Source: a virus
Direction: 5' to 3' (one strand)
DNA length: 64,000 bases
IMG/VR virus record: IMGVR_UViG_3300030333_002570
Location: 62,001 to 126,000 of that record
Shown: positions 3,473 through 43,572 of the stretch, piece after piece
Layout of the letters: every line of letters begins with the position of its first letter
Numbering within the stretch: the stretch's first letter is position 1
Notes under the pieces: model-generated
What the model saw: the letters and a program-made list of their open reading frames with translations, nothing else
What the model was told of the DNA's origin: nothing
Database searches by the model: none
Position numbers and translations under genes: made by a program

Positions 3473-6400
3473 ATGACAAGTATCAATAAGGTATCACAGG
3501 CAGTCGCTAGGCAGACTCCCGAATTTGTAGAGAACGATTATCCTCTCTTTACCAAATTTCTTGAATATTACTATCAATCTCAAGAAAAGACAGGTTTAGG
3601 TCAAAATATTCTTAATAACTTTCTTGGTTATTTGGATATTGATAAATTGGATATCAGTATATTAGATGGTGCAACAAAGGTAGTAGAAGCGATAAGTGCA
3701 ACGGATGATTCGATAGTTGTTGAAAGTATTGACCAGTTCCTTGATAATGATGGATCTGTTCTTATAGGTGATGAAGTAGTTTATTATGAAAAAGCGGTTC
3801 CTGGTCCTAATATTGCTCTAAGTCCAGGTGTTTCTTATGATCAAGTTAAATTAAAGTGGATTAACCTAGCAAGTCCTCTTTTAAGTTTTGATGATACTAC
3901 TAAGATATTCCCTTTAACATCTCAAGATAATCCTATTGCTCCACCTTCTGTACAACACTTGATTGTTAGTGTTTATGGTAAAGTTTTAATTCCTGGTACA
4001 GATTATAGTATTGAAGGAACAAATATTATATTTACGACTGCTCCTAGAACAAGAATTCCTGCTGATGATGCTTCTTCCACATATATTACCTATTTGAATG
4101 GTTTTAATGAGAATACAATCGTTCCTTTAGATAATATTTCTGGTAGTTTTGGTGAGAGTAAGAGACAATTTACTATTACTAGAAGTGGTGCAAGATATGA
4201 ACCTGTTGCTGATGAATATGTTCTTGCAGTTTATGATAATCGCCTATTAACTCCAAAAGTAGACTTTTTCCTTGATGGTGATCAGTTTATATTCTTAACT
4301 GCTCCATTAAACGGTAGATTCCTTTCATTGTATTCTATTGAAGCACCTATTCCTTCTTTTGGTGCTGGTGCAGTAGGTTATGCACGTATTAGTGACTCTG
4401 GAGAACTAACTGATATTTCTATCAGTAAAAATGGTTCTGGATATAAGTCTGAATATCCTCCACAAATTTCTATTAATACTGAAAATGGTAGTGGTGGTTC
4501 TGCAACTGCTCTTGTTAACGGTATTAAGTCAATATCTCTATTAGAAGGTGGTCAAGGTTATAGTAGTACCAACCCACCTGTAGTTCAAGTTCAAGCACCA
4601 ACTGCTCCTGGATCTACTGCTGCAACTGTAACTGCAACTGTAACTAATGGTGCTGTAAGTGACCTTAAAATCACTAATTCTGGTTCTGGATATACATTCA
4701 CACCTAGAATCACTTTCAAGCAACCTGGAGGTGCTGTATTAGGCGTTCCAACCATTACTAATGGACAAGTTACTGCTGTAAGTATTACTAATGCTGGTTT
4801 TGGATATACAACTGTTCCAACAATCTATATTGATGAACCAACTGGTACAAACCCAATTAAAGCAGCATTTCAGGCAGTTTTAAGTAGTCAAGGTGAAATT
4901 ACATCTATTAATATACTAAATGCTGGTCAAGGGTATACAACTACTCCTAGAATGGCAGTTATTGACCCAGTAGGTGCTCAAGTTCTTGAAACTACTGTTG
5001 ATAATCAAGGTAGAGTAATTAATATTGAATTATTAAGTGGTGGTGTAGGATATACTGATGTTCCTTCTGTTTATATTGTAGATAATAGAGTTGATGCTAC
5101 TGGTGGATATGCTGGTGGAACTGGTGCTGTAGCAACTGCATCAATCTTTAATGGACAAATTACAGATATTAATATTAGTGCTTTTGGTGGTGGATATAGT
5201 CAAACTTCTCCTCCTGTAGTTGTTATTCAAGCACCTCCTGCTGCTGAAGCATCTGCGGAGATTGGTTTGAATGAAGTTACTGGTTTTACAGTAAATCAAT
5301 CTGGTAGTGGGTATCAAAAGTCCCAATTAACTGGATGTGCTCGTGCTGCTTCGTCTATAACTTCATATACTGAAAGTGGTAACGCAGTATTTACAAATAA
5401 TACTAGTGCTGTTGCACATCCTGTAAATGAACCAATTAAGTGCTTAGATGCACTATTTGTTAAAAGATTACTCGATAAGTACACAGAACAGTATTTACCA
5501 GATGTTCCTACGTTAGATTATGCTAAAATTGACGTTAGAACAGCAATTAAGACAATTAAGGACTTTTATAGTTCTAAAGGAACATCATATAGTATTGGAT
5601 ACCTTTTTAAACTACTTTATGGTGAGACAGTAAGTATATCTTATCCTAAAGATCAAATTATCAAACCATCTGCTGCAACTTGGTCTATTGATACTATTTT
5701 GCGTGCTACTTTGGTTAGTGGTGATCCTACAAATATTCAAGATGGTCTTTTAACACAAGAAGCAGATATTGCTGACCTTAATGTTAAAGAAGCAAGTGCT
5801 CTTGTAGAAAATTATATTTCAATTAGAACTTCTGAAGTTACCATTTATGAATTGGTTCTTTCTGAAGAAACTATTGCTGGAACCTTTATTGTTCCATATA
5901 AGACAAAACTTGCAGAACCTTTAGGTAAAGAAGATAGTATTATTACAGTTGACTCTACTATTGGTTGGCCAGAAAGAAACGGTGAATTTATTATTGGAAG
6001 TTCAACTGATACTAGAGAAATTATTCAATATAAGGAAAAATCATTAAACCAGTTTATTGAGTGTACTAGATCAGTAAATGGTGTAGTTGAAGATTGGGAT
6101 TCTGCTACAGAGGTAAAATCAAACTTTAATGTTTATATTAATAAGGGAACTCCTCAAGAAGTAGTGATGAATATTGTTGGTATCGTTGATGCTCAACAAA
6201 CAACTCTTACTGATACTGGATCTTACTACTTACCAGGAGATAAATTAACAGTTTCTAAATTAGGTGGAACTGGAACTACTCCTGAACTTACAACTTGGTT
6301 GTATAATGTTAAAAAATTAATTAGTGTTACTAATGTAGCGTTTGGTGGTATTAATAACCAATCTGCAACTATTACTTGTGCTAATGATCACGGTCTTTTG

Positions 6401-9400
6401 GTAGGAGATCAGGTAACCATTTATGGTGCTAACCCAATTCTTTATAATGGAACATTCCTTGTAACATCTAGAGATAGTGATACTGTTTTCCAATATGCAC
6501 TACCTCAACCTGCAACAGTTATCCCACAGGGTAATATTCTTGTATCTATTGACCTTAATAAGGGTAAATCTACTAGTACTGCAATAAGCAATGCTATTAG
6601 TCCTTATACAACTAACGTTCAAAACTCATTCTTTAATGATAATTACGTTTATGTTGCTTCTACTGGTATTCCAAACTATAATATTGGTCCTTTCCCAGGA
6701 TCTGCTCTTCTTCCTGGTAACCAAAGAAAATTAACAAGATTCCCTAAAGTTCCGACTACTATATCAACTAAAGACCTTATTAGTTCTGGTCCTATTGGTA
6801 CATGGGTAAATGGTGTTTCTGTATGGTCATATAAGTCAAATTTAACTAAGACATTCGGTGCTGTAACAAGTATTGGTATTACAAATGCTGGTTCTGGATA
6901 TGATGCTGCATCTCCTCCTGCTATTACAATTGCTGGTGGAGGAGGTAGTGGTGCTACTGCTTCTGTAGTTGTTGATGGTTCTATTAGTGAAGTTACTGTA
7001 ACTGACGGTGGATCTGAATATACATCCTCACCATTGGTCTCTATAGTCGGTGGAGGAGGGTCTGGTGCTGCTGCAACCGCTATTATCACTAAAGGTGTTG
7101 TTTCACGTATTCTAATTAATTCTGGAGGATCTGGATACACCTCACAACCTCAAATTACTATTGTAGGTGGAGGTGGTTCTGGTGCTTCTGCTACTGCATC
7201 TGTTAGAGGTCCAATTAAGACTATTAATGTTACTTCTGGTGGTTCATCATATACATCTAATCCTACTGTTACTTTAAGTTCTGGTTCTGGTGCTGTTGCT
7301 CAAGCAATTGTACAGAATGGTCGTATTATATCGATTGCTATTATTTCAGCTGGATCTGGATATACTACTGCTCCTGAAATTACTATTCAAGGTGATGGTT
7401 TTGGTGCTGTTGCTAGAGCAACTATTGATGTTGATGGAGAAAATGCAGGTAGGGTTACTAATATTGAAATTATTAATAGAGGTATTGGATATCTTCAAGG
7501 AACCACTATTATTAATTTAAATTCAGTTGGATCTAGTGCATTATTCACTCCAAATGTATTTAAGTGGACTTATAACTTACAATCAACTGCAACTTTAGAT
7601 AGTGCAAAAGGTGGAGTATTTGAAGGATATAATAACCAGTATGGTGGTGAATATGCTCACCTTTCAAACCCACAAACATTAAGATATATTTTAGGTGACA
7701 ACCTTTTTGAATCAACTGGTGGTACAATATTAGAGAAAGAAGATTCTATTGTACACTCACCTATTATTGGTTGGGCGTTTGATGGTAACCCAATCTATGG
7801 TCCTTATGGATACTCTGATCCAACCGATCAAGGTTCTGTAATTACTAGATTGAGCACTTCATATAGAGTTAAAACTGCCCTTGTTTATGACGCTGCTACT
7901 AACCCATACCCAGTTAGGGCTGATGGTCCTTTACTCACAGATACGGATACTAATGGTACTCTATTATATCCAGCTGGTGCTTTCGTTGAAGATTATGAAT
8001 ATGTCTTTGGTTTAGGTGCATTAGATCAATATAATGGTCGTTTCTGTAAAACACCTGATTATCCAACTGGTAGATATTGCTATTTTGTCACTATTGACAA
8101 TACTACTGCTGGTAATCCTGAATTCCCTTATGTTTTAGGACCAAGTTTCAACTCTGTTGTAGATAAGTGGAATTTGAGTACATCTGCTGTTCAACAGAAT
8201 ATTCCTACTGGTGTTGTTCGTTATAGAGACCCATATGAAAATGTTGATATTGATGTAGATAGAGCACCTAACGTTTCTACTAATGCTTTAACAACTGAAG
8301 ATGGTGAAATACTATTATTTGAAGTAGAAGATGAAGATAGAAGTGGTGTTATAGATCAGGTAGAAATAGATGATCCAGATCAAATCTTTGAAGAATCACC
8401 TTTACAGTTATTTGATTACTTCCCTAAAGTAACATTTGATTCTAAAGTTGATATTGAAGTTGAAACTATTACTAAATTTGAAGATGCTTCTGTAACTGGA
8501 TTTACTATTGAAAACCCAGGTATTAACTATCAGGTTAATGACCGTTTAAACTTTGATAATGAAGGAACTGACGGTACTGGTGTTTCTGCTCGTGTTTCTA
8601 GAATTAAGGGTGAAGCAGTCGAAAGTTATACTTTTGAAAACATTAGTGGACAAAATTTCGGTGTTTTAAAGACTACAGAACCACATAATTTAGTAGTTGG
8701 AGATAGTGTTTTTGTAACTTATAATCCAATAATGAACAACACAAATAAAACTTTTGTTGTTCGTCAATTTAAAGGTATTGAAGAAATTGTTGTTAATCAA
8801 ACTGGTTCTGGTTATAATTCTGATATTCCTCCAACAATTACTATTGATAGTGCTACTGGAAGTGGTGGGGAATTACAAGCAGTTGTAACTTCTGTTGGAT
8901 CTATTGAAAATGTTAATATCTTAAATTCTGGTTCTGGATATACAACAAACCCTCGTGTTATACTTTCACATCCACAGGTCTTTAAGAAAGCAGATTACTA
9001 TGTTTCTAAGATTGATAATAATAATTACGTTAAAGTAAATGATGTTGTTGTTAATACAAACAAAGAAGTCTTTATTTGTGGTAAAACAAAAGATGCAAAT
9101 GGTAATAATGTTGGATTTGTTTCTAAATTATCTGCAACTGGTGTTAAAGAGTGGGAGAAAACTCTAGAACTTACTAGTGGACAACAGTACTGTGAATTTG
9201 AAAAACTTTATGTTGATGGAAATGATGTTTGGGTTGTTGGTAATAATAGACCAGAAAGCAATCTTTTAGATGCATATAACCCAGATGTTATTCTGGCAAA
9301 GTATACTCAAGCAGCAAATGGTCTTGCTGCTACATTGGCATTCCAGAAAGGATATGCTGGTATTTCAGGTTCTACTCGTGCTGATTCTGTAACTGCTATT

Positions 9401-12400: not shown

Positions 12401-15400
12401 TATAAAGGTACTTTCTCTATTAGTTCTGTTGCTGGTGCAACAATTACTCGTGGTGCTGATGTATTTAAATTCCCTCTATTAAATGAACCAGAGGGTAATG
12501 CTGAAGTATCTCAAACAACTTATAGCACAAGTTCTGTTAAAGCAGTTGGATCTATTTCTGATGTTCGTATTGTTAACTCTGGTGGATTCTATACTAGACT
12601 ACCAATTGTAAGCAGTATTACTTCAACAAGACAAATTGAAAGAGTTGCTATTGAGGATCCAGGAACTGAATATGCTGTAGGTGTGTATACTGGTGTTCCT
12701 ATTGCTGGAAATGGTGAAGGTGGATTTGTAGAAATTACTGTTGCTGATGGATTAGATAGTGAAGGTGTAACTATTCCTGGTCAAATTAACTCTGTTGTAG
12801 TTACATCACCTGGTAAAAATTATACTACAGCAACTATTGATATTGAATCAATACCTGGTATTCTCGGTGCAGGATTAACTGGATCTGGTGCTATATTAAA
12901 TGTTGTTATTCCTAATGCAGGTACTCAAGCATCTATATTTACCAAAGCAGATAAAGTTGGTAAGATTAAGAAACTTAAGAATAATAACTTTGGTTATGAT
13001 TATCCTCATGACTATACTTTACGTCCTGAGATTTCATTCCCAATTAACGCACAGTTAACATCTACAAGTATACTTTCTAGTATTACCGTTACTAATCCAG
13101 GTTCAGGATATTCACAAGCACCTGCTGTTGTAATTACAGGTGGTGGTGGATCTGGAGCAACTGCTGAAGCAACAATTAAGAATGGTAGATTAGATCAAAT
13201 TATAGTTAAGGATCCAGGTGCTGGTTATTCATCAACACCAACTGTTTCACTTAAATCTTCATTTAACTATGTTGTTAACCTTGACTTAGGTCTACTACAA
13301 TTTGCTTTCCCACACGGTATTACAAATGGTGCTGCTATAACTTTAAATGTAGTTGATACTGGAGATGGTGCTGATTTCCCACTTGCTGCTGGTGCTGTTG
13401 GTCGTTTAAATGGATCTACAACTTATTATGCTATTTCTGGTGCAGCAAATTCATTAGAAAATGATCAATTAAAAATTGCACTTACTGCTGCTAACGCTGA
13501 ATTGGGTGATGCTCTTTCCTTTGTTAACGCTGGTGAAGGTCGTCAACAGGTATTAACTGAATCATTTGGTGGTAGTGCTACTGCTAATGTTATTACTTCT
13601 ACCTTCTTAGAAGGAGAACTTGTTTATCAAGGTGAATCATTAGATACTGCAACTGCTACTGGATATGTTTCTACTAACCAAGGTTGGCAGATCGGACCTA
13701 GAATTCTTAAGATTGTTGATTATACGGGAACATTCTCAGAGACCCAAAAAGTTACGGGTGTAATTTCTAAGTCTTCAGGTACTATTAGTGATTTGAATAT
13801 TGCTCGTGGTGTTCTTGAGATTGGTTCTATTACCAAAACTACTGGTCAGTTTATCGATGATGTTGGTAAACCATCCGAAATTATTCAGAAGATTCAAGAC
13901 TCTTACTATTATCAAGACTTCTCCTATGCTATTAAGTCTGCTGTTTCTATTAGTGAGTGGAAGGAAATTCTTATTAAGAACGTTCATCCTGCATCATTTA
14001 AGGTATTTGGTGAGTTAAATCTATCTGATTATGGATTTATTCCAAATAAAGAGACTGATTTCCAACTTACTAAGTCTGTTGAACTTGCAAGAGAAGCAAT
14101 AGTTCCAAATATTCAAAGTTTTGCTCTTGTAGAACCAATTTATTCAGAATTTAATAACACTGAAGTTCTATTCCGTCAAAAGAGATTAACTTCTTCTGAG
14201 AACATTCTAACTTCTGTTGTACAAAGAATTGATGATATTTCTGATCAATTTGATGGTGAAAAGATTGCATTCCCTCTAACAGTTGATGGTAACACTGTTG
14301 TTGCTAACGCTAATCAGTTAATGATTGTTTTGAATGGTATTGTTCAGAACCCTGGAACTGCATTTGAGATTCAAGGTGATTCTATCGTCTTTAGTGAACC
14401 ACCACAACCACCTGCAAGTGTTAAGTATGTTAATATTGAAATATCACAAATTTCAATTGTAAGTAATACATTTACTAACCAAAGTGGTATTTTCCCAAAT
14501 CCAGGTAATATTTTAACTGGAACAAACTCTGGTGCTAAATTAACTGTTACTTCTGTTGTTGGTGATACTATATTTGGTTTTATTACAGAAGGAACATTTA
14601 TTGCTGCAGAAAACGTAACTGTTAGTGCAACTGGATTTAGTGCTAACCTTGATGTTCAAAGTAGTGTAAGTAATATTGGATTATTCCAGTACGGTGAACA
14701 AGTTAAGAACTTAACTAATGATACTGCTAAGGTTGAGCAAATCAACCTTCAGAGAGGTTTGGAGAATGCATTAGCAAAATTACGTTATACAGTTGGTCCT
14801 TCTACTCTTCAAATAGAAGTAGTTCCTCCAAATAGCACTACAGACGGTCCTGTTGCTACTGATACATTTACGGTTGATCAAAATTATCAACTTGGATCTG
14901 AAGTTGTTAAAGTTACTAATATTGTTGACGGTAATGATTCTACAACATTAACAGTTTCCAGAGCACAAAATGGAACTATTGCATCACAACATCAAGAAGA
15001 TTTCCCAATTTACGGAACTCTATTAACGGTGACAACTTCTCTTACTTTAAGTAAGACAGCTGGAACTTATAAGTCTACTCCTGGTCTATTTGATATTCAG
15101 TTAAATGATATCATTATTGGTGCTAAGTCTGGTGTTGTTGCTCGTGTTACACAAACAAGTGCATATCAAGATCCTACAACTCAAGAGTTTATAAGTCAGG
15201 TTAATATTTCTGAAGGTTCTTCCTTCTTTGGATTGTTGATGAACAGAATTACTTCTCAGACATATCCAAACGTTGTTCTTGATGATATTTCTAAATCTCA
15301 AGTTAGTGTTGTTCAGTACACTGATAATTCTACTGCTTTCAACTCACAGTTCCCTGCTAATGAACAGATTAATAACATCGTAGTTCCTTACGATAATCTA

Positions 15401-18400: not shown

Positions 18401-21400
18401 AAGATTGGTTTAAATGAATTTGCTCATACATGGGCTGGTGGTACTGCAACTAATGCAGTTGAGAAAGCAAATGATGTAATTAAATTTGCTGATAATTCAA
18501 TGACATTTACTTGTGCATTGGATGGTGGTGCAACACAACATCAATATCCAAGGACAACTGATCCTGTAAGTGATAAGTGGTTGATTGTTGAAAATGTTGG
18601 ATCAACTACTTTTGATGTTCAAGTTTTAGATAACGCTCCTTCTACTAATACATCTGCACATACATTTGTTAGTGCAACAACTGGTGCTGTTAAGATTAAG
18701 AGAGATCCTGCTCAAGGAACTGCTCTTCCAATCACTGCTGTAGGTGCTACAACTATTACGGTTAATGTTACACCTATTACTTCTTATAGTTCATCATCTC
18801 ATACATTCCAATCTGCATCTCAAGGTGCTGTTAAGGTTGGTGGTGATTACACTCATAAATTTGTAGATGCTGCTTCTGGTGCTGTTATTCCTCATCACGG
18901 ATTCTATATTGGTGATAGAATAATGTTTGAGGAAGGATCATTAGTCTTTACTTGTGGTATGGATAGTGATGCTACTAGACATGCATATCCAAGAGAAAGT
19001 GATCCATTCTACAATAAATGGTTACCAATTAGTAGTGTAACTACAAATACCTTTAATGTTGATGTTGGATCAACTACTAATACAACATTTACTCCAACTG
19101 GAGGATCCTACGATGGAACCACAGGTAAGTTAAGTATTACTATTGGTGCTAATACACTTGAAGTTGGTCAGCATGTTAAGATTGCTCCTAACGGAATTTC
19201 ATTCACATGTGCAATGGATGGTGGTCAATCTGTTAAGTCCTATCCAAGAACAACTGACCCAACATATAATCAAACTCTTCCAATTCTTGAAAGAAGTGAT
19301 ACTGCTATTACTGTTGATGTTGGTAAATCACCTTATGTTTACTTTGATGTTTCTGCTGCTACCTACAACCCAACATCGGGTGTCATGGTACTTACAATCG
19401 GAGATCATGGATTAGCTGCTAATACAAGTATCAGACTTAAAGATAATTCATTAACCTTTAGTTGTGATCAAGGTGGAACTGTTGGAACTGGAACTTATCC
19501 TAGATCTGGTGGTGCAGACTACGTTTATCAGAAAGCAATTAATATTGATTCTGTAACTGATACTACAATCACAATTAATGTTAACGGTGGTCAAGGTGCT
19601 ATTACTAATACCAATGCTCATACATTCGTAAGTGCTATACCTGGTGCAGTTATTGCTGGTGGTGCTTGGGCTCATACTTATTCTACTGCTGCAGCAAATG
19701 CAGTTTCAGTTGGTGGTAACTATACTCATACGTTTAAGTCTGCTTCTCCTAATGGTATAACAAGAGCTGGTGAAACACTTAGAATTATTAAAGATGGTAT
19801 ATCATTTAAGTGTTCACAAGATGGATATCAAACAATTCATTCATATCCTAGAACAGATGATCCTGGATATAATACTTCTCTACCAATCTATAATGATGGT
19901 ACTGCTTATACTGCATCTAATGCAGCATATAATGCATCAACTGGAGAAATGGTCATTACTATTAATGGACATGGATTTACAACCAGTGATCAAATTAGAA
20001 TTGAAAATAATTCATTAACATTCACTTGTGTTAAAGATAGTAATACATCTACCCATAGTTATCCTAGAGATAATGATCCATTCGTTCGTAGATGGTTAAG
20101 AATTACTGCTGTTACTGAAAATACATTTACTGTAAATGTAGGTAAAGCATCTTCCTCAACTCAACAGTTCTCACATACATTTGCTTCTGCTACTAAAAAT
20201 GGTATTGTTAAACGTGATAATACTGTTACTGTTAACGTTGGTGCTATTCCAACTAAGAGTTTCACACCGACTGCATCAACATATAATCCTTCAACTGGTG
20301 CTTTAGCATTAACTATTGGATCACATAGTCTACCAGCTCCAACCACACATACACCAACTGATGTTGCGTACAATCCAACAACAGGTATTATGACTTTGAC
20401 TATTAATGGTCATAACTTCTCTAATGGTGAAAAGATCAAGATTGCTGATGGTGGATTGAAGTTAAGTTGTGCATTTGGTGGTGCTTCTGGTGCTGCTGCA
20501 CAGAAAGATTATCCACGTTCAACTGACCCAATTAGCGGTAAGTGGATTCCTATTAAGAATGTAACTACAAATACTTTTGATGTCCAAGTTCTAGATGTAA
20601 TACCTTCTACAAACACTGATGCTCATTCATTTGTATCTGCTGTTACTGGATGTATTAGTAAAGCAAATGCAACAGTTAAAATTGCTGAAAATTCATTAGT
20701 TTATAAGTGTGCTGAAGATAGTAATGCTACAGAACATGCTTATCCAAGAAGCAATGTTGCTACTCATACAGCTGGACCAGGGACAACTTATAATCCTGTT
20801 ACAGGTGTTCTGAAGCTTAGTGTTCCTACAGAAAGTCATACACCTTCTACAGCAACATATAATCCTTCAACGGGTGAGATGGTTCTAACTCTTGATTCAA
20901 CTTCTGGAGCATTTAACGTTTCTAATGCAACTTATAACACCTCTACAGGTGATATGGTACTTACCATTGGATCTCATAGTTTAACTACAGCAAATAGAAT
21001 TAAAATTAAAGAAGGATCTTTGAAGTTTGCATGTAACTTTGGTAATGATAATTATCAAACTCCAAAAGCATATCCAAGAGCTTCAGGTGCTAATACTACT
21101 AATGGTGCTGACTATGCATTTAATACATTCCTACCAATTACCGCAGCTGATGCTACAACTATTACTGTCAATGTTAATGGTGGTCAAGGTTCTATCAGTA
21201 ACAATAATCAGCATAATTTCTTAAGTGCTGATGCTGGTGCAGTTATTGTTGGTCATGGATTATCTGTTGGTGATAGAATTAAGATTGCTGATGAATCATT
21301 AACCTTCAGTTGTGATCAAGGTGGAACTGTTGGAAATGGTTCATATCCTAGATCATCTAATGACTATGTTTATCGTAAGTGGATTAGAATTAGAGCAGTA

Positions 21401-24400
21401 ACTGGAAATACTATTACTGTTAATGTTAACGGTGGACAAGGTGCTATTACTAATACCAATGCTCATACATTCGTAAGTGCTACTGCTAATTGTATAACCT
21501 CTGGTCATGGAATGACTAATGGTACTCCAATTAAGATAACTGATAGTTCACTATCATTCAGTTGTACTGAAGGTGAAGGTGGTACATATGCATATCCAAG
21601 AGCAACTGACCCAGTTTCTAAGAGATGGTTATTCATCAATAATGTAACTGATTCTTCATTCGATGTTCAAGTTTTAGATACAATTCCTTCAACTAATGTA
21701 ACTTCACATACATGGATTAGTGCTGTTGCTGATGGTATTGTTGAAGGTGATCCTATTGTTGGACAAGCAGTTCCTGTTGAATCTGTAACTTCTACATCTA
21801 TTACAATTAATCCTCTTGATGGTGATGTTCCAACTAACACATCTGCACATACATTTGAGAAGTTAAACACATATCAATTCCAACCATCTGCTATTACCTA
21901 CACTCCAACAACAGGTGTAATGTCAATAACATCTACATCTCATAAGATTGAAGAAGGTGATAAGATATTCATTAAAGATAATTCATTATCATTTAAGTGT
22001 AATATGGGTGATGATGCTGGTCTTCATACTTATCCTCGTGAGACAGATCCAGTATCTAATAAGTGGATTACTGCTACTAACGTAACAGCTAATACATTTG
22101 ATGTTAATGTTGGTTCAACACCTAATGTCTTCTATACTCCTTCGGATGCAACATATAATCCAACTACGGGTATAATGAGACTTACTATTGGTAACCATGA
22201 TCTTAGACCTGGTACTAGTGTTAAGTTAGGACAAGAATCATTAACATTTAAGTGTGCTCACGATTCTTATGCAACTAATCATTCATATCCAAGAAATACA
22301 ATATTAAGTCATACTCCAACTGATGCTGATTATCATCCTGATACAGGTATCATGACATTGACTGTCAATAATCATAAGATGGGTGATGGTGATTGGGTTA
22401 AGATTGCTGATGGTGCTGTAACATTTAAATGCACATATGGTGCTGGTATTCATACTTGGACTGGTGGAACTGCAACTGGTGCTGTTCAAGTTCAAGAAGC
22501 AGGTTTAGGAAACTTTGATGTTACTGCTGCTGACTATAATCCATTGACAGGTGATATGGAATTAACAGTCGGATCTCATTCTATTACAACTGGTAATACC
22601 GTTAAAATTGTTGCTAACTCATTAACCTTCAGTTGTGATCTTGATAATAATGCAACGAACCACACTTATCCTCGTGCAACTGACCCTGCATATGATACTG
22701 CTCTTGCAATATCTGCTGTAACTGGTACAACTATAACAGTTAATGTTGGTGTAAGTTCACCTGGAACTGCATATCCTCGTGCTTCTGATCCAGTTAGCGG
22801 TAAGTGGATTAAGGTCTTTAACGTAACTACAAATACATTTGACGTTCAACTTTTAGATATTGTTCCATCAACTAATACAAGTATTCATACATTTGTTTCT
22901 GCTGTTACTAATGGAATTAGTCAGAAGAAAGATAGTGCTTATGATTCTCCAGTTGAAATTGTTGATACTACTGCTACAACTATAGATCTTAAAGTTGTTA
23001 GAAAATTACCTTCTACAAATACAACAAATCACATCTTTGTGTCTGCTGCATCTAACGCAGTTATCTCAGGTGGTGCATATACACATACCTTTGTTACAGC
23101 AGACGCAGATGCTATTACTAGATCTATAGTACAAACTGGTGGTAATTATAATCATGTATTTGCATCAGCATTAACAGATGGTGTAGTTACTGGTGGTAAC
23201 TATGTTCATACTTTTGTATCTGCTGCAACTAATGGTATTAAGTGTGCTGGTGATGCAGTTTATCTTGCTCCTGGATCTCTTACATTTACATGTTCACAGG
23301 ATGGAAATGATAGACCTACTGCATATCCTAGAACTACAGATCCTTCTTATAATCAATTATTAGAGATTAAAGATGTAACTTCTGATACATTTACTATTGA
23401 TGTAGGTGCAGCTGCAGAGAAAGATCAATATACTCATTCATGGGTAAGTTCTTCTCAAGGAGCTGTTAAGAAATCTGATTACAATCTCAAAGATTGTACT
23501 GATGTTCATACTACAGTCGGTAACTTAATTGATATACTTACAGATACATTAACAAATGCTAATGTATCACCTACACCTGTTGATCATTTAGCAAGTGTTA
23601 CTAAGGTTCTACCACCATATAAGTTCTACGGTGCAACCGTTGACGCATATAATGATACTCCATTCCCTGTATCATATCATAGTGCTGCCAATGATCTTAT
23701 AGTTACTAATCAAATTGATGAAGATACTCAGTATAGATTCCGTGATGCTGCATACTTAATTCGTGCAAATAGTGGTGTTATCGTTGATAAAGCAGCATAT
23801 GACATGCTACAACGTTATCCAGATCTTGCTATTAGTATGCCAAGAAATGCTAATGGAACATCTACAGATGGTACTGTTCGTTGTAAGCAAGATTTACTTG
23901 AGTTTGTTAGTGCAATTGCTACTGACCTTGAAAATGGTGGTAATTTAAATACCATGAAAGCTGCTAAGTTCTATATTAGTCTTTCTGGTGGATTACAACA
24001 TATTCGTTTACAGGTATTCCAATCTGTTTATGCACATGATCGTTTAGGTGTATATCTTAAGCAAGCAGTTACTGGTGATTTAACATATGATAATACCGAT
24101 AATATCGTTGTTCGTGACTGGGGTATTACTGATAATAGTTCTAGTGGTAATTGTGCTAATGTTCAAACTGCTATTGACACATTAATTACATCAATTAATG
24201 ATTTGATCGCACCTACAGATAGTGACCATGCACTTGCTGCAGATAGATTATACTTCAATAAAGATTTCCTTGCTGAAGAAATTACTGGTCTTACAACTGC
24301 ATATTTCACTTATACATTAAACGGTGTTAATTACTCAGCACTTACATATCCTGGATCTACTGGAGAGGCTACATGTCAGAGAGATATTAAGTTAATTTTA

Positions 24401-27400
24401 GATGGTATTATTTCTGATCTACAAACTGGTGGTAATGAAAGTACTGTTATTGCAATGGAGAAATATCTAAGTGCTACACTTCAGATTGAACAAGTGGATG
24501 ATGAATTAGCAGCAACTATCTACGCTATTGATAGACTTAGACATCTTGGTCAATTTGGTATTAAGGATAAATTATTCTCACAAAATGAAGGATCAGGTGC
24601 TGCTGATGAATATGAAGCAGTTCATACTAATAGAGCAGAGTATAGAGATGGTTTAAGTGATGCTGGTGGTATGAATGCGGTTGTATATCGTTATCGTGAT
24701 CTATGTGATATTGCAATTAATATACTTGCTCCTGGTGGTAAGGCAGCAAGAAGTGCTGTTAAGCAACTTAAGTACAACCAAAATTACTATAAGGAAGAGA
24801 TAACCACACTTGTTAATACACAATTTGGAACTGGAACTTGGACTTATAATACATTCATTGATGAAATGGTTGGTAATACTGTTCATGATATTCTTACAAC
24901 TGACTTTAATAAAACAAGGACTGCTTATACAATAGAATTAACTAGTACATTCAATGATTATGTTGTTGGTGAAACTGTTGTTTCTAGTAATGGTGGTAAA
25001 GCAACTGTATTAGAATGGGATGATGATGAAGAAATTTTATATACTTCATCATGGACTGGTAATAAGTTTGAACCAACTCAAACATTAGTTGGTGGAAGTT
25101 CTGGTGCATATGGAACTATTGCTGCTAATGGTGTTAGTGCTCCTTATACTTGGTATACAGAACCTGCTAATATTAAATCACTTAACACTGCCAGATTAAT
25201 TACTTCTAATATTTCTGGTCAAGTTGCTGGAACTAATATAGCATCTAATCCAGAAAACTTTACAACTGGTTGGACAAACACTGGTATAACTACATCTGCA
25301 GATCAACTTGAATCACCAGATAGTACAACAACTTCAGATAAGTTAATTGCTGCTGCTGTTGCTGGTGAACATTATATTTCACAAAACTTTGCTATTAGTG
25401 CTTATGAAACATTTGATAGTGATACAGTTAAGTTTGATAGTGCTACTGAAACATTTGACACTGGTGCTCTTGGAACTCAAACAACTCAGCAATACACATT
25501 CTCAGTATTCTTGAAGAAAGGTGAATTTAATAGAGTTCGTGTTCAAATGGGTCTTGATACTGGAACTGTTGGAGAGCAATTAGCATTCTTCGATCTTAAT
25601 TTGAATGATGGTGTTATTGGTTCTATATTCACTCCTGGTAATGGTATTGTTATTGATGCATATGGTGTTGTTCCTTATGGTAATGGTTGGTATAGAGCAT
25701 ATATTACTGGAACATTCTCCTTCGGATTCTCTCAGATACGTCCAATAATCTTTGTTAGAGATGCTTCTGGTGCATCAACCTATACTGGAGATGCAAGTTC
25801 TGGTATTTACATCTGGGGTATGAAACTCTTTAAGGGTGTTCTCGATCCTTATCAATCTGTTGCTGGTCAAGTATTCTATGCTGATACAGAGTATAACATT
25901 AAGACTTATGCATTAGATCTGTTACAAGATTATATGATTAAGGCACTTACTGGATCTTTAATATCTCCTTCAACTAATGCAGGATTCTATGCATACTATG
26001 ACAATACAATTAATACTGATTATAAGTATCGTTCTATTGAAAGATTAGTAAGATATAATTTAAATATTATCCGTGAGCAATTAGCAGTAGATAGTTACTA
26101 CACTGGTATTATCTCATTAAATGGTGTTTCTGTTCCTACTAAGACTTATGGTACTAGAAGCATTCCTGCAGGTATACAAGGTGGTTTACAAAATTCAATT
26201 TATGTTTATGGTCTTCAAAGTAATGCTAATGCTGAAATTGAAACAATAACTGAAAATTCAGGTAAAGTTGTTCAAGTTTATCAGAGATTTAGAATTGATG
26301 GTGATATAACAGACGGACCATTTACTATGAATGAGACTGTTTCTAAACAGGGTGCTCCTTCTGTTACTGGTGTTGTTTATGGTTACTGGTCTGATGAAAA
26401 CTACAAGTACCTAGATGTTAAGATTACTGCTGGTCCTTGGGCGGTTACAGATACCATTGTTGGTGCTCTAAACTCAACAACTGCTCAAATTAGTTTAATA
26501 GAAGATAGACTTCATATTATTGATGTTAAGGGTGAATTTGAGAATGATATTCCATTTAAGGGATATACAAGTAGTGCTACAGCATCACCTACTGGATATA
26601 TTAAGGCAGAGGCATCTGTTATTGACAATACTGGTGGAACCTTAACAGTTGATACTGAAAGTCTAACAGGATCATTTGAATCAACTGCTGTTGTTTATCC
26701 ATCATCTTCTAGGAAATATATCGATGTTTCTAAGTATGCTGGTCTTGATATTACTGTTGGTGATAGAATTGCTTCTGGTGGATATAAGAGATTTGGTGTT
26801 TCTGTTCTAAGTGGACTTAATCAATTTACTCAAGGTAATAGACTTTATAAGGTTGTCTCTGGTATTCAAGATACTAACACATACGGTATTATCACCGAAG
26901 TTGATATTGATAATGGTTACATATATGTTGCGGAATATCAAGGATCATTTACTCAGGGTGATATTGTAGGTGACTATGGCACAAATGCTTCCTTCCCAGT
27001 TGGTTACGCATCAATTTTAACGATTGTTACTACTCAGGGTGCTGCAGCTGCATTAGTACAAGATGTTCGTGATATCGCATTGAATAAGAGATTATATCTA
27101 ACAGATATTGCAGGAACATTTGATGATAAAGATTATATCATCGGTCCTGATAATTATAGATCTGTAGTTGTTGGTATTACTGATCTTAAGGCACGTGTTA
27201 AACGTTCCTTCAAGGGATTTGATGGAACAACAACTACGTTCCCATTAACAATTAATAACGGAACCACATACTTACCTGACTCTGCAGGTCATATGTTAAT
27301 ATTCCTTAATGGTATATTACAACCTCCAGGTGCAACTAACGCATATACAGCGTTCTCTAACCAGATTCAGTTTACTGAAGCACCAGATTTAGGTGCATCC

Positions 27401-28126
27401 TTCACAGGATTCTATGTTGGTAAGTTGAGACAGTTAGATGATATATCCTTTGAGTTTGACTCCTTACGTCAGTCATTCAACCTTAAGCGTAATGAAGTAT
27501 TCTACTCACTAACTCTAACTGAAGGTGTTCAGTCCAGTACAATTCTCCCAGAAAATAACATTATTGTTTCACTAAATGGTGTTGTTCAGGAACCAGGCGT
27601 AGGTTTCGAGATCGTTGGTTCTAGAATTATCTTCTCTGAAATTCCTCGTGTGGGATCAACATTCGTTGCCTTCTCCTACGTTGGTTCTGAGGCAGACGTT
27701 GATGCTGCTGAAGTTGTACCACCAGTTGAACCAGGTGACTTTATTGACATCCAAGGTGAGACTTCAGATAGAGAAGTTGCTGTTATTGAATCTTCTAACT
27801 CCTTAATTACATTTGACTATCTTGGATCAGTCTTTGGTAAGGACGCACAAGGACAAGCAAATATTACTTCAGGAACTATTGAAACCGTTCAGGTAACTTC
27901 AGGTGGATCTGGTTATACAACTAGACCAACTGTTAGACTTGATTCTATATCTGGTTTTGATGGTAATGTTAAAGCACTAGTTGGTGTTGCTGGTGTTGAA
28001 ATTAATAATCCTGGAAGCGGTTATCAAAACCCTGCTGTTGCAGTAGAAACAGTTGTAGATGATAACTGGACTGCTCCTGACTTAAGTCTATACGGAGAGG
28101 AACCAGTTGACCCCGAAACACCATAA
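3473..28126 (+). CDS. Giant 8,217-residue virion protein at the gp7 position (mosaic baseplate/adhesion protein)
   Basis: One frame of 8,217 codons with no internal stop. It opens like baseplate proteins of marine T4-like phages (VENDYPLFTKFLEYYY, residues 18-33). A core segment follows at about 657-730 (DFYSSKGTSYSIGYLFKLLY), and a second at about 3470-3530 (YYYQDFSYAIKSAVSISEW, then VHPASFKVFGEL). In shorter homologues I recall these lying in one ordinary wedge protein. Other regions, by residue: GSGY-type repeats at 300-625, 1130-1353 and 3025-3260; a YHYH-like domain at 1432-1556; beta-propeller-like repeats at 1838-2220; LamG/ConA-like domains at 2253-2446 and 4070-4243; a helical cassette at 4310-4423 and more at 6670-7140; a 21-copy YPR array at 4445-6663; a carbohydrate-binding-like domain at 7253-7460; and beta modules (ILLNGxxQxPG type) at 7906-8217. 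Gene order supports a wedge-initiator (gp7) role plus host-binding extensions. No signal or membrane segments were seen. Function is inferred. Confidence 0.85.
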   Translation: MTSINKVSQAVARQTPEFVENDYPLFTKFLEYYYQSQEKTGLGQNILNNFLGYLDIDKLDISILDGATKVVEAISATDDSIVVESIDQFLDNDGSVLIGDEVVYYEKAVPGPNIALSPGVSYDQVKLKWINLASPLLSFDDTTKIFPLTSQDNPIAPPSVQHLIVSVYGKVLIPGTDYSIEGTNIIFTTAPRTRIPADDASSTYITYLNGFNENTIVPLDNISGSFGESKRQFTITRSGARYEPVADEYVLAVYDNRLLTPKVDFFLDGDQFIFLTAPLNGRFLSLYSIEAPIPSFGAGAVGYARISDSGELTDISISKNGSGYKSEYPPQISINTENGSGGSATALVNGIKSISLLEGGQGYSSTNPPVVQVQAPTAPGSTAATVTATVTNGAVSDLKITNSGSGYTFTPRITFKQPGGAVLGVPTITNGQVTAVSITNAGFGYTTVPTIYIDEPTGTNPIKAAFQAVLSSQGEITSINILNAGQGYTTTPRMAVIDPVGAQVLETTVDNQGRVINIELLSGGVGYTDVPSVYIVDNRVDATGGYAGGTGAVATASIFNGQITDINISAFGGGYSQTSPPVVVIQAPPAAEASAEIGLNEVTGFTVNQSGSGYQKSQLTGCARAASSITSYTESGNAVFTNNTSAVAHPVNEPIKCLDALFVKRLLDKYTEQYLPDVPTLDYAKIDVRTAIKTIKDFYSSKGTSYSIGYLFKLLYGETVSISYPKDQIIKPSAATWSIDTILRATLVSGDPTNIQDGLLTQEADIADLNVKEASALVENYISIRTSEVTIYELVLSEETIAGTFIVPYKTKLAEPLGKEDSIITVDSTIGWPERNGEFIIGSSTDTREIIQYKEKSLNQFIECTRSVNGVVEDWDSATEVKSNFNVYINKGTPQEVVMNIVGIVDAQQTTLTDTGSYYLPGDKLTVSKLGGTGTTPELTTWLYNVKKLISVTNVAFGGINNQSATITCANDHGLLVGDQVTIYGANPILYNGTFLVTSRDSDTVFQYALPQPATVIPQGNILVSIDLNKGKSTSTAISNAISPYTTNVQNSFFNDNYVYVASTGIPNYNIGPFPGSALLPGNQRKLTRFPKVPTTISTKDLISSGPIGTWVNGVSVWSYKSNLTKTFGAVTSIGITNAGSGYDAASPPAITIAGGGGSGATASVVVDGSISEVTVTDGGSEYTSSPLVSIVGGGGSGAAATAIITKGVVSRILINSGGSGYTSQPQITIVGGGGSGASATASVRGPIKTINVTSGGSSYTSNPTVTLSSGSGAVAQAIVQNGRIISIAIISAGSGYTTAPEITIQGDGFGAVARATIDVDGENAGRVTNIEIINRGIGYLQGTTIINLNSVGSSALFTPNVFKWTYNLQSTATLDSAKGGVFEGYNNQYGGEYAHLSNPQTLRYILGDNLFESTGGTILEKEDSIVHSPIIGWAFDGNPIYGPYGYSDPTDQGSVITRLSTSYRVKTALVYDAATNPYPVRADGPLLTDTDTNGTLLYPAGAFVEDYEYVFGLGALDQYNGRFCKTPDYPTGRYCYFVTIDNTTAGNPEFPYVLGPSFNSVVDKWNLSTSAVQQNIPTGVVRYRDPYENVDIDVDRAPNVSTNALTTEDGEILLFEVEDEDRSGVIDQVEIDDPDQIFEESPLQLFDYFPKVTFDSKVDIEVETITKFEDASVTGFTIENPGINYQVNDRLNFDNEGTDGTGVSARVSRIKGEAVESYTFENISGQNFGVLKTTEPHNLVVGDSVFVTYNPIMNNTNKTFVVRQFKGIEEIVVNQTGSGYNSDIPPTITIDSATGSGGELQAVVTSVGSIENVNILNSGSGYTTNPRVILSHPQVFKKADYYVSKIDNNNYVKVNDVVVNTNKEVFICGKTKDANGNNVGFVSKLSATGVKEWEKTLELTSGQQYCEFEKLYVDGNDVWVVGNNRPESNLLDAYNPDVILAKYTQAANGLAATLAFQKGYAGISGSTRADSVTAITKLSDTRFVIGGYTNTNSTAPFDGYIALIDTTGNFAIKRKVAGSNTSEKVTGLAINAGNIYFSLESAASPNATAIDIGLGKATVGTSTITIDYVKTYSNTAYSFLDSSLCIDEFNEVYLTATCRLKANNTTKNSFWVGKTDISGNLIWNYRYQIPNESGTEYDVQTVNKTVIDVFGDLNVGVTLTSGINSLKSARSFKIGYSGNLKEHSANVFNINNIEGLTIHSLDADNSGDVHLFGQSAWNRNEFILPFTGGATTDTTGHYTPTIVTTGGSLSYENTVQDGYAKILGSQTASPTVWENAYIKFAAADLGTKLAEDWTIEFFLYRDSTNTNVFSQNEETLFSIGDATVTTGGLWCYINQSDGKLGFRATNSTTALNAGSASLSTQSSLFPLNTWITVGVKKEGDVFSTYVNGIATGSWTIASTSLGNKDLIIGNISGRNGTLNNWRSNEQGQYHIDNLRLRNRAVTPSVPSDITVVPATGQFPIGYNWQDDAWFTTNLNKFDYIDYTGIGIKVDKNADASRIGTYTERTNTKLGFVRTDVIGTTITPTTMTVVTTGFALADAGFQGLDFDDATTTMSQDTETMTYTQDVWSSRTATVPSPGSQKLSVSAVVKDKYYFKVTNTVKIDNVQELTLNQAFNFTTGTKLVLNNDAGTFVNSGYIIRQDVPNKKIYLAINNNAWSNDLNTGNLITEQFSEQSTFGIVGPIPADINEISGYTFAQVNNTTPGTFDIDLDDYNLDGTYNAGGSQDLDSYAKFKPYSDDDYSIRIDEVTTGSPYIVGSVININSGNISYNAAYSTAQITGLTAVTKITLIANLTKIMQVSAVSNSDEVYVITGTSHYLDAGDMIYVDGNPTENSLDEYDGAFAVNSVVSPLEFTYKLKQVATTSPATTAGNVSIFVKSPVLKMYYGHQYIFDMSHSSLLGGNLSFSKDNLFKLEYSFNSIERTGTPGVSGEGVPTPIVKLKVDENILTNISYYFDPSRIGDDSPIDPSSYLDVTDSPYKGTFSISSVAGATITRGADVFKFPLLNEPEGNAEVSQTTYSTSSVKAVGSISDVRIVNSGGFYTRLPIVSSITSTRQIERVAIEDPGTEYAVGVYTGVPIAGNGEGGFVEITVADGLDSEGVTIPGQINSVVVTSPGKNYTTATIDIESIPGILGAGLTGSGAILNVVIPNAGTQASIFTKADKVGKIKKLKNNNFGYDYPHDYTLRPEISFPINAQLTSTSILSSITVTNPGSGYSQAPAVVITGGGGSGATAEATIKNGRLDQIIVKDPGAGYSSTPTVSLKSSFNYVVNLDLGLLQFAFPHGITNGAAITLNVVDTGDGADFPLAAGAVGRLNGSTTYYAISGAANSLENDQLKIALTAANAELGDALSFVNAGEGRQQVLTESFGGSATANVITSTFLEGELVYQGESLDTATATGYVSTNQGWQIGPRILKIVDYTGTFSETQKVTGVISKSSGTISDLNIARGVLEIGSITKTTGQFIDDVGKPSEIIQKIQDSYYYQDFSYAIKSAVSISEWKEILIKNVHPASFKVFGELNLSDYGFIPNKETDFQLTKSVELAREAIVPNIQSFALVEPIYSEFNNTEVLFRQKRLTSSENILTSVVQRIDDISDQFDGEKIAFPLTVDGNTVVANANQLMIVLNGIVQNPGTAFEIQGDSIVFSEPPQPPASVKYVNIEISQISIVSNTFTNQSGIFPNPGNILTGTNSGAKLTVTSVVGDTIFGFITEGTFIAAENVTVSATGFSANLDVQSSVSNIGLFQYGEQVKNLTNDTAKVEQINLQRGLENALAKLRYTVGPSTLQIEVVPPNSTTDGPVATDTFTVDQNYQLGSEVVKVTNIVDGNDSTTLTVSRAQNGTIASQHQEDFPIYGTLLTVTTSLTLSKTAGTYKSTPGLFDIQLNDIIIGAKSGVVARVTQTSAYQDPTTQEFISQVNISEGSSFFGLLMNRITSQTYPNVVLDDISKSQVSVVQYTDNSTAFNSQFPANEQINNIVVPYDNLVGGPIQENETIRNYKLKYGGNTGEFIAGESARARKLSYVNPKGDGFFATGQVIRTQDTKAEVLGFNQADQVIYLGKVGRTKANGQDYHIPSFSNSAQLDTTVKYYGTASLQLVAATNDYVTIPSSSEFAFGTGAFTIDLMLRPAASSLSGTATILDMRASAANEVAGRLYLEAGQVRWNVSNADVVTSGATTLSADTWVLISIMKSSTTTKILLNGVEAGTATDNTTYIAKPIRLGSDYAGTNSFTGFIDELRVSNTNRHQTIPFTPQNGIWQGDAQAKLLLHFDGADAQTWVDDWSGAEGFTAGEDFNNDAIISSTRSSNATPGGFTGNTQRYYDAADLILLNKEFLAQEVVYILKERHPHHTVKGSEVDCEDDVRDVLDAVIDDLRNGTNNKIWDASSYYVDRTSSPIVLKFVSNEVDEVVYTYDKLEEMLKYIVNNTLWDVQGDHGLVQKTDSTITESSGLTTQTFQPTGASYDAASGYMVLTASGHGMRSERAITATDAAYTATTGILQLTVATSTFSVSTATYDHTTGVMVITIGSHSLTTNDNIRIATGGITFSCDNGGVSTGAYPRSSGANTESGADYAYDRWLPILAVGATTITVNVNGGKGAISHAFAHTYSTSSAGCITAGHGLNDGDRIKFDPNSLVMNCTSDGNTVNQSYPRPDDPAAQGWLEVTANTGTTFDVNVGKSPTVNYTATAGTYNADTGFLTMNIGQHNLRTGRKYTATNAEYTAASGVMKITIGDSIDVYDASYTAKNGLLKLNIGHHNFKKGSLVKIAPNSLFFTCSMDDYQSVHAYPRSSDPVYNDDIEIIDITDETITVDVGTSPEVSYTPTGATYDINTGDMVLTIGSHSLAVGTSIRLLDESISFSCSFGSGGTSAYPRPLVDTANISTASYNPQTGIFSVTTTAAHNLTGPTAKNVTDATYNPSTGILQLESGGHNFAVGDKIRIKDDSLVFTCTKDGNATNHTYPRSTDPVSGQWLTIVARATNTFDVQVGASKIGLNEFAHTWAGGTATNAVEKANDVIKFADNSMTFTCALDGGATQHQYPRTTDPVSDKWLIVENVGSTTFDVQVLDNAPSTNTSAHTFVSATTGAVKIKRDPAQGTALPITAVGATTITVNVTPITSYSSSSHTFQSASQGAVKVGGDYTHKFVDAASGAVIPHHGFYIGDRIMFEEGSLVFTCGMDSDATRHAYPRESDPFYNKWLPISSVTTNTFNVDVGSTTNTTFTPTGGSYDGTTGKLSITIGANTLEVGQHVKIAPNGISFTCAMDGGQSVKSYPRTTDPTYNQTLPILERSDTAITVDVGKSPYVYFDVSAATYNPTSGVMVLTIGDHGLAANTSIRLKDNSLTFSCDQGGTVGTGTYPRSGGADYVYQKAINIDSVTDTTITINVNGGQGAITNTNAHTFVSAIPGAVIAGGAWAHTYSTAAANAVSVGGNYTHTFKSASPNGITRAGETLRIIKDGISFKCSQDGYQTIHSYPRTDDPGYNTSLPIYNDGTAYTASNAAYNASTGEMVITINGHGFTTSDQIRIENNSLTFTCVKDSNTSTHSYPRDNDPFVRRWLRITAVTENTFTVNVGKASSSTQQFSHTFASATKNGIVKRDNTVTVNVGAIPTKSFTPTASTYNPSTGALALTIGSHSLPAPTTHTPTDVAYNPTTGIMTLTINGHNFSNGEKIKIADGGLKLSCAFGGASGAAAQKDYPRSTDPISGKWIPIKNVTTNTFDVQVLDVIPSTNTDAHSFVSAVTGCISKANATVKIAENSLVYKCAEDSNATEHAYPRSNVATHTAGPGTTYNPVTGVLKLSVPTESHTPSTATYNPSTGEMVLTLDSTSGAFNVSNATYNTSTGDMVLTIGSHSLTTANRIKIKEGSLKFACNFGNDNYQTPKAYPRASGANTTNGADYAFNTFLPITAADATTITVNVNGGQGSISNNNQHNFLSADAGAVIVGHGLSVGDRIKIADESLTFSCDQGGTVGNGSYPRSSNDYVYRKWIRIRAVTGNTITVNVNGGQGAITNTNAHTFVSATANCITSGHGMTNGTPIKITDSSLSFSCTEGEGGTYAYPRATDPVSKRWLFINNVTDSSFDVQVLDTIPSTNVTSHTWISAVADGIVEGDPIVGQAVPVESVTSTSITINPLDGDVPTNTSAHTFEKLNTYQFQPSAITYTPTTGVMSITSTSHKIEEGDKIFIKDNSLSFKCNMGDDAGLHTYPRETDPVSNKWITATNVTANTFDVNVGSTPNVFYTPSDATYNPTTGIMRLTIGNHDLRPGTSVKLGQESLTFKCAHDSYATNHSYPRNTILSHTPTDADYHPDTGIMTLTVNNHKMGDGDWVKIADGAVTFKCTYGAGIHTWTGGTATGAVQVQEAGLGNFDVTAADYNPLTGDMELTVGSHSITTGNTVKIVANSLTFSCDLDNNATNHTYPRATDPAYDTALAISAVTGTTITVNVGVSSPGTAYPRASDPVSGKWIKVFNVTTNTFDVQLLDIVPSTNTSIHTFVSAVTNGISQKKDSAYDSPVEIVDTTATTIDLKVVRKLPSTNTTNHIFVSAASNAVISGGAYTHTFVTADADAITRSIVQTGGNYNHVFASALTDGVVTGGNYVHTFVSAATNGIKCAGDAVYLAPGSLTFTCSQDGNDRPTAYPRTTDPSYNQLLEIKDVTSDTFTIDVGAAAEKDQYTHSWVSSSQGAVKKSDYNLKDCTDVHTTVGNLIDILTDTLTNANVSPTPVDHLASVTKVLPPYKFYGATVDAYNDTPFPVSYHSAANDLIVTNQIDEDTQYRFRDAAYLIRANSGVIVDKAAYDMLQRYPDLAISMPRNANGTSTDGTVRCKQDLLEFVSAIATDLENGGNLNTMKAAKFYISLSGGLQHIRLQVFQSVYAHDRLGVYLKQAVTGDLTYDNTDNIVVRDWGITDNSSSGNCANVQTAIDTLITSINDLIAPTDSDHALAADRLYFNKDFLAEEITGLTTAYFTYTLNGVNYSALTYPGSTGEATCQRDIKLILDGIISDLQTGGNESTVIAMEKYLSATLQIEQVDDELAATIYAIDRLRHLGQFGIKDKLFSQNEGSGAADEYEAVHTNRAEYRDGLSDAGGMNAVVYRYRDLCDIAINILAPGGKAARSAVKQLKYNQNYYKEEITTLVNTQFGTGTWTYNTFIDEMVGNTVHDILTTDFNKTRTAYTIELTSTFNDYVVGETVVSSNGGKATVLEWDDDEEILYTSSWTGNKFEPTQTLVGGSSGAYGTIAANGVSAPYTWYTEPANIKSLNTARLITSNISGQVAGTNIASNPENFTTGWTNTGITTSADQLESPDSTTTSDKLIAAAVAGEHYISQNFAISAYETFDSDTVKFDSATETFDTGALGTQTTQQYTFSVFLKKGEFNRVRVQMGLDTGTVGEQLAFFDLNLNDGVIGSIFTPGNGIVIDAYGVVPYGNGWYRAYITGTFSFGFSQIRPIIFVRDASGASTYTGDASSGIYIWGMKLFKGVLDPYQSVAGQVFYADTEYNIKTYALDLLQDYMIKALTGSLISPSTNAGFYAYYDNTINTDYKYRSIERLVRYNLNIIREQLAVDSYYTGIISLNGVSVPTKTYGTRSIPAGIQGGLQNSIYVYGLQSNANAEIETITENSGKVVQVYQRFRIDGDITDGPFTMNETVSKQGAPSVTGVVYGYWSDENYKYLDVKITAGPWAVTDTIVGALNSTTAQISLIEDRLHIIDVKGEFENDIPFKGYTSSATASPTGYIKAEASVIDNTGGTLTVDTESLTGSFESTAVVYPSSSRKYIDVSKYAGLDITVGDRIASGGYKRFGVSVLSGLNQFTQGNRLYKVVSGIQDTNTYGIITEVDIDNGYIYVAEYQGSFTQGDIVGDYGTNASFPVGYASILTIVTTQGAAAALVQDVRDIALNKRLYLTDIAGTFDDKDYIIGPDNYRSVVVGITDLKARVKRSFKGFDGTTTTFPLTINNGTTYLPDSAGHMLIFLNGILQPPGATNAYTAFSNQIQFTEAPDLGASFTGFYVGKLRQLDDISFEFDSLRQSFNLKRNEVFYSLTLTEGVQSSTILPENNIIVSLNGVVQEPGVGFEIVGSRIIFSEIPRVGSTFVAFSYVGSEADVDAAEVVPPVEPGDFIDIQGETSDREVAVIESSNSLITFDYLGSVFGKDAQGQANITSGTIETVQVTSGGSGYTTRPTVRLDSISGFDGNVKALVGVAGVEINNPGSGYQNPAVAVETVVDDNWTAPDLSLYGEEPVDPETP
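4371..5350 (+). repeat. First block of glycine-rich 'GSGYT' protein repeats in the giant gene
   Basis: About eight units of roughly 35-45 residues share the pattern I..I.I.NSGSGYT..P.I.I, followed by a small-residue strand (G.G..A.A.V..G.I). Examples are KNGSGYKSEYPP, NSGSGYTFTPR, NAGFGYTTVPT, NAGQGYTTTPR and SGGVGYTDVPS. The same unit recurs in the giant gene at about 6860-7530 and 12540-13260, and in the neighbouring structural genes. The units look like short beta segments that form a stalk or spacer. Confidence 0.85.
6860..7530 (+). repeat. Second block of GSGYT repeats
   Basis: Six or so units with strong conservation of a GGGGSGA turn between strands (AGSGYDAASPP, GGSEYTSSP, GGSGYTSQP, GGSSYTSNP, AGSGYTTAP). 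The GGGGSGA motif repeats three times almost unchanged, suggesting more recent duplication than in the first block. It precedes the YHYH-like domain. Confidence 0.85.
12540..13260 (+). repeat. Third block of GSGYT-like repeats
   Basis: More divergent units (SGGFYTRLP, SPGKNYTTAT, NPGSGYSQAP, DPGAGYSSTP) with one GGGGSGA turn near 13140. The block lies between an adhesion-like region and the distal baseplate core segment of the giant protein. Confidence 0.75.
16805..23460 (+). repeat. 21-copy 'YPR' repeat array inside the giant gene
   Basis: About 6.6 kb encodes units of roughly 90-110 residues. The consensus order is: YNPSTGxMxLTIGxHxL, then xGDxIKIAxxSLxFxC, then a DGxAT..YPRxTDP motif, then a VTxxTFDVxVG strand, ending in HTFVSA. 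I count 21 YPR motifs. The middle position alternates between a TDPVS/TDPxYN type and a GADYxY type. A near-identical 60-bp stretch occurs at 19577-19636 and 21422-21481 with one mismatch. The units are probably repeated beta domains forming a long fibre or surface; ligand unknown. Confidence 0.9.
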
Positions 28127-28129
28127 ATA
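28122..28129 (+). promoter_or_regulatory. Late-promoter-like octamer CATAAATA
   Basis: CATAAATA differs from the T4 late promoter core at one position. It includes the stop codon of the giant gene (TAA 28124-28126) and lies 21 nt before the next start codon. It would allow the cupredoxin-domain structural genes to be transcribed independently of the 24.6-kb gene upstream. Confidence 0.5.
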
Positions 28130-28150
28130 ACTAAAAAATTGTAGCGAGTA

Positions 28151-29377: not shown

Positions 29378-29382
29378 TATAA

Positions 29383-34284: not shown

Positions 34285-34288
34285 CCTT

Positions 34289-34296
34289 CATAAATA
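34289..34296 (+). promoter_or_regulatory. Late-promoter-like octamer CATAAATA
   Basis: CATAAATA lies in the 38-nt gap between the 1,633-residue protein gene and the gp8-like gene, 27 nt before its ATG. This is one of the few places in the structural cluster with room for a promoter. Confidence 0.55.
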
Positions 34297-34322
34297 AACA
34301 AGAGGACAATAGTCACTAGGAA

Positions 34323-35855: not shown

Positions 35856-35858
35856 CGA

Positions 35859-43542: not shown

Positions 43543-43547
43543 TATCG

Positions 43548-43572
43548 AAGGGGGACGCAAGTCCCCTTTCTT
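43548..43572 (+). terminator. Intrinsic terminator with GCAA loop
   Basis: A 9-bp stem (43548-43556 with 43561-43569, one G-U pair) closes a GCAA tetraloop and runs into a T-rich tract (CCCCTTTCTT). It separates the baseplate unit from the fibre-like gene, which has its own promoter-like octamer just downstream. Confidence 0.85.

Follow-up and report, generated by a model that had tools for sequence, protein, structure and literature searches.

The window analysed here, a stretch of 64,000 bases, covers positions 62001-126000 of virus record IMGVR_UViG_3300030333_002570, which is 130,092 bases long. The source virus is classed as a cyanomyovirus by gene content, because a psbA-type fragment lies at the left end of the record, which also has T4-type cyanophage structural genes. 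An open reading frame of 8,217 codons lies directly 3' of the gene for gp6 and 5' of that for a gp9-type connector, in the following group of baseplate genes (window coordinates).

1041-1460, + strand: gp25, baseplate wedge (phrog_261, E 4e-62)
1460-3460, + strand: gp6, baseplate wedge (phrog_219, E 5e-222)
3473-28126, + strand: giant gp7-family baseplate wedge / virion structural protein, 8,217 aa (phrog_701 over nearly its whole length)
28151-29377, + strand: gp9-type baseplate wedge-tail fibre connector (phrog_677, E 9e-193)
29383-34284, + strand: baseplate wedge subunit of cyanophage type, 1,633 aa (phrog_708)
34323-35855, + strand: gp8, baseplate wedge (phrog_438, E 4e-231; same place in S-SM1 and P-SSM4)

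The order 25-6-[giant]-9-phrog_708-8 is common to the window, S-SM1 and P-SSM4. A 2OG-Fe(II) oxygenase gene is found at 106-732, just 5' of gp25.

The giant frame begins with ATG and runs for 24,654 bp without an internal stop, as the initial annotation had reported; it occupies 38.5% of the window, where that annotation gave about 38%, and 19% of the whole record. The predicted product has a mass of 877 kDa, within the 0.85-0.9 MDa first estimated, and a pI of 4.7. At the composition of the window, an open frame of this length would arise by chance with a probability of about 10^-267, and third-position GC content is low and even along it (0.11-0.21 per 1,000 codons), which indicates coding throughout. 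The frame is known here from the assembly of a metagenomic contig alone, so that several genes might have been fused by a chimeric join or by the loss of stop codons. However, an independently assembled contig of 87 kb (G001) carries the same gene in one uninterrupted frame of 8,214 codons; its protein is 91% identical to that of the window, with 5 gap positions over some 8,213 aligned codons, and dN/dS between the two is 0.08-0.27 in all nine windows of 1,000 codons, as expected under purifying selection. In 19 records that reach the C-terminus of the gene, G001 among them and some being near-duplicates, this position is occupied by a single frame of 6,374-9,131 codons; taken together with those of many isolates, the single frames there span 6,000-9,100 aa. 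The giant frame is real and intact, and we give practically no weight to an assembly artefact, since the second contig has the same frame and selection is purifying in every window.

Sequence similarity places the protein in an established cyanophage family (phrog_701; T4-GC 397/643/969). The 6,136-position profile of phrog_701, built of cyanophage virion structural proteins, covers nearly its whole length (aa 3-2800 align to profile positions 2-2775, and the alignment continues to position 6134 of 6136), and its N-terminus matches 352 phage records by tblastn. Lengths of the proteins at this position in isolates, read from annotated coordinates, are as follows.

P-RSM6: 8,573 aa
P-TIM40: 7,351 aa
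P-SSM4 and P-SSM3: 7,312 aa
P-SSM7: 7,124 aa
S-E7: 7,041 aa
P-RSM4 and S-TIM4: 6,603 aa
S-RIM2: 6,378 aa
S-SM1: 6,180 aa
S-SSM5: 6,171 aa
Syn10: 6,076 aa
ACG-2014a: 6,064 aa
S-H38: 5,512 aa
P-HM1: 4,446 aa

The window protein is thus at the long end of the known range and inside it. The longest relative that we found, in an uncultured phage (G009, IMGVR_UViG_3300020472_000035), is encoded by one frame and has 9,131 aa; with this protein and that of P-RSM6 at hand, an unprecedented size is rejected. The initial annotation had supposed cyanophage versions to have a few thousand residues at most, which is incorrect, as isolates mostly have about 6,000-8,600; compared with other proteins at the gp7 position the size is unexceptional, one isolate protein (P-RSM6) exceeding it.

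The closest isolate relatives, in S-SM1, P-SSM4, P-RSM4, P-SSM7 and S-TIM4 (annotated as gp7 or virion structural protein), have the same gene position and are colinear with the window protein, with identities of about 68-79% across most of aa 1-4092 and of 54-79% in the C-terminus. P-RSM6 CPXG_00128 and P-TIM40 AU107_gp099 also adjoin gp6 and have gp7 motifs similarly placed, but they form a separate group, with about 40-49% identity to the window protein and an extra structural gene downstream. The gp7 of P-HM1 resembles the window protein in both gp7 segments, in a YHYH domain and in repeated modules bearing a YPR motif, whereas it is shorter, adjoins gp8 and is missing a large share of the middle and C-terminal regions. 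P-HM1 has, at 25325-32602 and 33175-44205, a second gp7-annotated gene and a distinct tail-fibre gene that contains YPR modules, a layout that looks as if the parts of the giant were distributed among several genes.

Within the giant protein we distinguish the following segments.

5561-5644, + strand: gp7 motif I (aa 697-724), equivalent to T4 gp7 732-759 (hhalign, PDB profile search, PF23786)
5645-13924, + strand: insertion of about 2,760 aa (aa 725-3484) where T4 gp7 has domain V, flanked by motifs I and II
7565-8104, + strand: YHYH domain (aa 1365-1544), within the insertion (PF14240, E 2e-28)
13925-14011, + strand: gp7 motif II (aa 3485-3513), equivalent to T4 gp7 864-892 (hhalign, weak PDB profile match)
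15746-16177, + strand: LamG/concanavalin-like domain (aa 4092-4235; PF13385, E 1e-15)
16790-23422, + strand: length-variable array: 21 diverged YPR beta modules (aa ~4440-6650; phrog_1276/5342/18802, alignments, AlphaFold)
25439-25837, + strand: phage spike-fibre domain (aa 7323-7455; NCBIfam NF048003 GTA_spike_fiber, E 8e-17, above cut-off)
25970-28123, + strand: conserved C-terminal segment (aa 7500-8217; identity across relatives)

Homology to T4 gp7 is carried by the two motifs. Motif I aligns with T4 gp7 at 47% identity over 32 columns (hhalign, E 2.7e-6 for the pair) and motif II at 38% over 29 columns (E 8e-4 for the pair), and BLAST pairs the motifs of P-RSM6 and P-TIM40 in the same way as hhalign. 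PF23786 (Baseplate_wedge) is found at aa 685-729, above its curated cut-off, and a second fragment of it (profile positions 235-280), below cut-off, some 2,750 residues further on. When 13-phage profiles of the regions surrounding these two pieces were compared with the whole PDB, the first matched T4 gp7 best (E 5.9e-4) and then a second gp7, and the best match of the second was again a T4-type gp7, at a weak E of 0.23. In T4 gp7 (1,032 aa; PDB 5IV5, 5HX2), whose gene likewise adjoins gp6, the motifs flank domain V (residues 766-861), and the giant keeps this colinear order. However, about 105 residues separate the motifs in T4 versus about 2,760 in the window protein, which has a further 4,700 or so after motif II; T4 gp7 is eight times shorter, and no LamG domain, YHYH domain or YPR array was found in it. 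The Pfam domains PF21427, PF21456 and PF21428 (domains V, VI and helical), present in T4 gp7, were not found in the window protein, which is thus a divergent gp7 homologue and not T4-type throughout. Both motifs are short, at some 30 residues each, motif II is weak when taken alone against the PDB, and the N-terminal 120 residues gave no similarity to T4 gp7. Nevertheless, homology to gp7 and membership of the wedge are well supported, and a place in the wedge like that of gp7 is suggested by the sequence. The proposal of gp7 in the initial annotation therefore holds, by gene order and by two colinear motifs with a T4-type gp7 as best PDB match, and its companion claim of exceptional size falls to the isolate lengths.

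Outside the motifs, LamG was recovered as initially proposed, and YHYH and spike-fibre domains were found as well; the beta-propeller proposed with LamG was not found by Pfam in the window protein. LamG and GTA_spike_fiber are of carbohydrate-binding type, as far as domain type goes. Identity of the C-terminal segment is 63-90% in the S-SM1/P-SSM4 group and about 40% in P-RSM6 and P-TIM40. A PDB profile search with its alignment returned nothing convincing, and an AlphaFold model of these 718 residues, at pLDDT 37, was unusable.

The family alignment shows conserved ends (aa 1-4092 and ~6890-8217) around a variable middle of YPR modules. In 12 proteins, length followed 5,998 + 107 x the number of YPR units (R2 0.99), the units ranging from 2 in S-SM1 to 29 in the 9,131-aa uncultured relative; these proteins are related, with two near-identical pairs, so that the fit is a description and not a test on independent samples. 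The window protein has 21 units in its 8,217 aa, and the S-SM1/P-SSM4/P-RSM4/P-SSM7/S-TIM4 group, in most of which the YHYH signature is also seen, has 2-11 in 6,180-7,312 aa, with 11 in P-SSM4; P-RSM6 and P-TIM40 have YPR units too. By these alignments, the extra length of the window protein consists of more copies of one repeated, predicted beta-strand module. AlphaFold gave an all-beta fold for two units (pLDDT 89), from alignments whose rows came from the window and IMG/VR loci only. In the PDB nothing matched this fold at E <= 0.001, a phage endosialidase and other beta proteins being the closest of the weak hits, and a profile search there with the YPR alignment gave nothing convincing; the good matches of the fold in BFVD were mostly cyanophage structural proteins. 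Similar units also occur in cyanophage tail-fibre proteins.

In unit-level BLAST, in which overlap of neighbouring windows produces some 100% self matches, all 21 units had a close partner in G001, and most matched a unit of another phage better than any within their own protein. The units are thus old. Recent tandem duplication of the array is not supported, as Tandem Repeats Finder (TRF) reports no array there and most units are closer across phages.

Orthologues of the giant have been detected in virions. The S-SM1 gene at this position carries the annotation T4-GC969, and Sullivan et al. (2010; PMC3037559) list T4-GC969 among 41 proteins that mass spectrometry detected in purified S-SM1 virions. 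In S-SZBM1, the 'baseplate wedge initiator' S-SZBM1_208 (724 kDa, 6,619 aa) yielded 71 virion peptides, with 13.5% coverage and an emPAI of 0.41 against 0.23 for gp6 (PMC9146016, Table 1); its gene adjoins gp6, and it is 40-49% identical to the window protein over three long stretches and is without the YPR array. The initial annotation had named missing virion peptides as grounds for dismissing the giant; peptides have been seen for these two orthologues, which have little or no array (2 copies in S-SM1 and none in S-SZBM1, versus 21 in the window). The core of the giant is thus present in particles, virion presence having been shown for orthologues of this kind only.

In the T4 baseplate, six gp7 monomers each make contact with gp10, gp8, gp6 and gp9, and switching of the baseplate is accompanied by the outward swing of one gp7 domain (PMC3004832). 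The giant would be the cyanophage form of this protein, a single chain of about 877 kDa, probably also in six copies per virion. Its N-terminal region and motifs I and II would lie in the wedge core, in contact with gp6 and neighbouring proteins, and the core may act as T4 gp7 does. The loop of T4 domain V would have become the insertion that bears YHYH, and the part past motif II would comprise the lectin-like LamG domain, the roughly 21 YPR modules, the spike-fibre domain and the conserved end. Insertion and C-terminal arm could then place the YHYH, LamG and spike-fibre modules at the rim of the baseplate, with the array as a spacer of variable length that holds sugar-binding-like modules off the tail for contact with the host surface. 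We regard such a wedge gp7, with inserted carbohydrate-binding-like modules and a variable beta array reaching from the tail, as the probable reading; host adhesion and the extra tail structure foreseen in the initial annotation, like the geometry and position of the arm, are inferred. We put forward more tentatively, as a possibility, that the arm is length-tunable, gp7 being split at domain V and YPR copy number (2 to 29) setting arm length and so reach or host range.

The insertions of a gp7 wedge subunit might instead mainly brace or enlarge the baseplate without binding the host, array length tracking tail or baseplate dimensions. Over the greater part of the protein, at aa 1-4092 and the C-terminus, identity to S-SM1 is 67-79%, which resembles a scaffold more than a fast-changing receptor binder, and the separate YPR-bearing tail-fibre genes of cyanophages may encode the real adhesins; but domains such as LamG and spike-fibre typically go with glycan binding or with fibres, and an array that ranges between 2 and 29 copies in related phages would be unusual for a load-bearing core part, so that we consider bracing rather doubtful. 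Cleavage of the chain by a protease during assembly, giving a gp7 core and separate fibre-like pieces, would suit the modular layout and the partial peptide coverage in S-SZBM1. It is improbable, however, given that the two motifs of one wedge core stand 2,760 residues apart in a single chain and that all parts remain in one frame across the family.

The giant was already represented by annotated and virion-proven orthologues, that of P-RSM6 being longer; what this analysis adds is the T4 gp7 homology as two motifs split at domain V, and the rule that ties length to repeat number. Proteins of the giant gp7 type are widespread among the abundant myoviruses of the ocean and are established components of the virion. 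The motif split locates their growth at T4 domain V and past motif II, and the rule of 107 residues per unit provides a simple variable to compare with host, tail shape and adsorption.

Other structural genes of the window also show repeated or added sequence. Profiles of the giant, phrog_701 and phrog_460 among them, are also matched by the products of gp8, of gp14 (52267-53193) and of the phrog_708 gene; short modules, probably GSGY-type repeats, would thus be common to several of this phage's structural proteins. A gene for a 2,607-aa structural protein (43626-51449, phrog_697) has long tandem repeats in its 3' part (49005-51188), with periods of 159, 129, 207 and 36. The tail sheath (60228-62477) has 749 aa and spans the 496-position sheath profile phrog_23 from end to end, so that about 250 extra residues would lie inside it.
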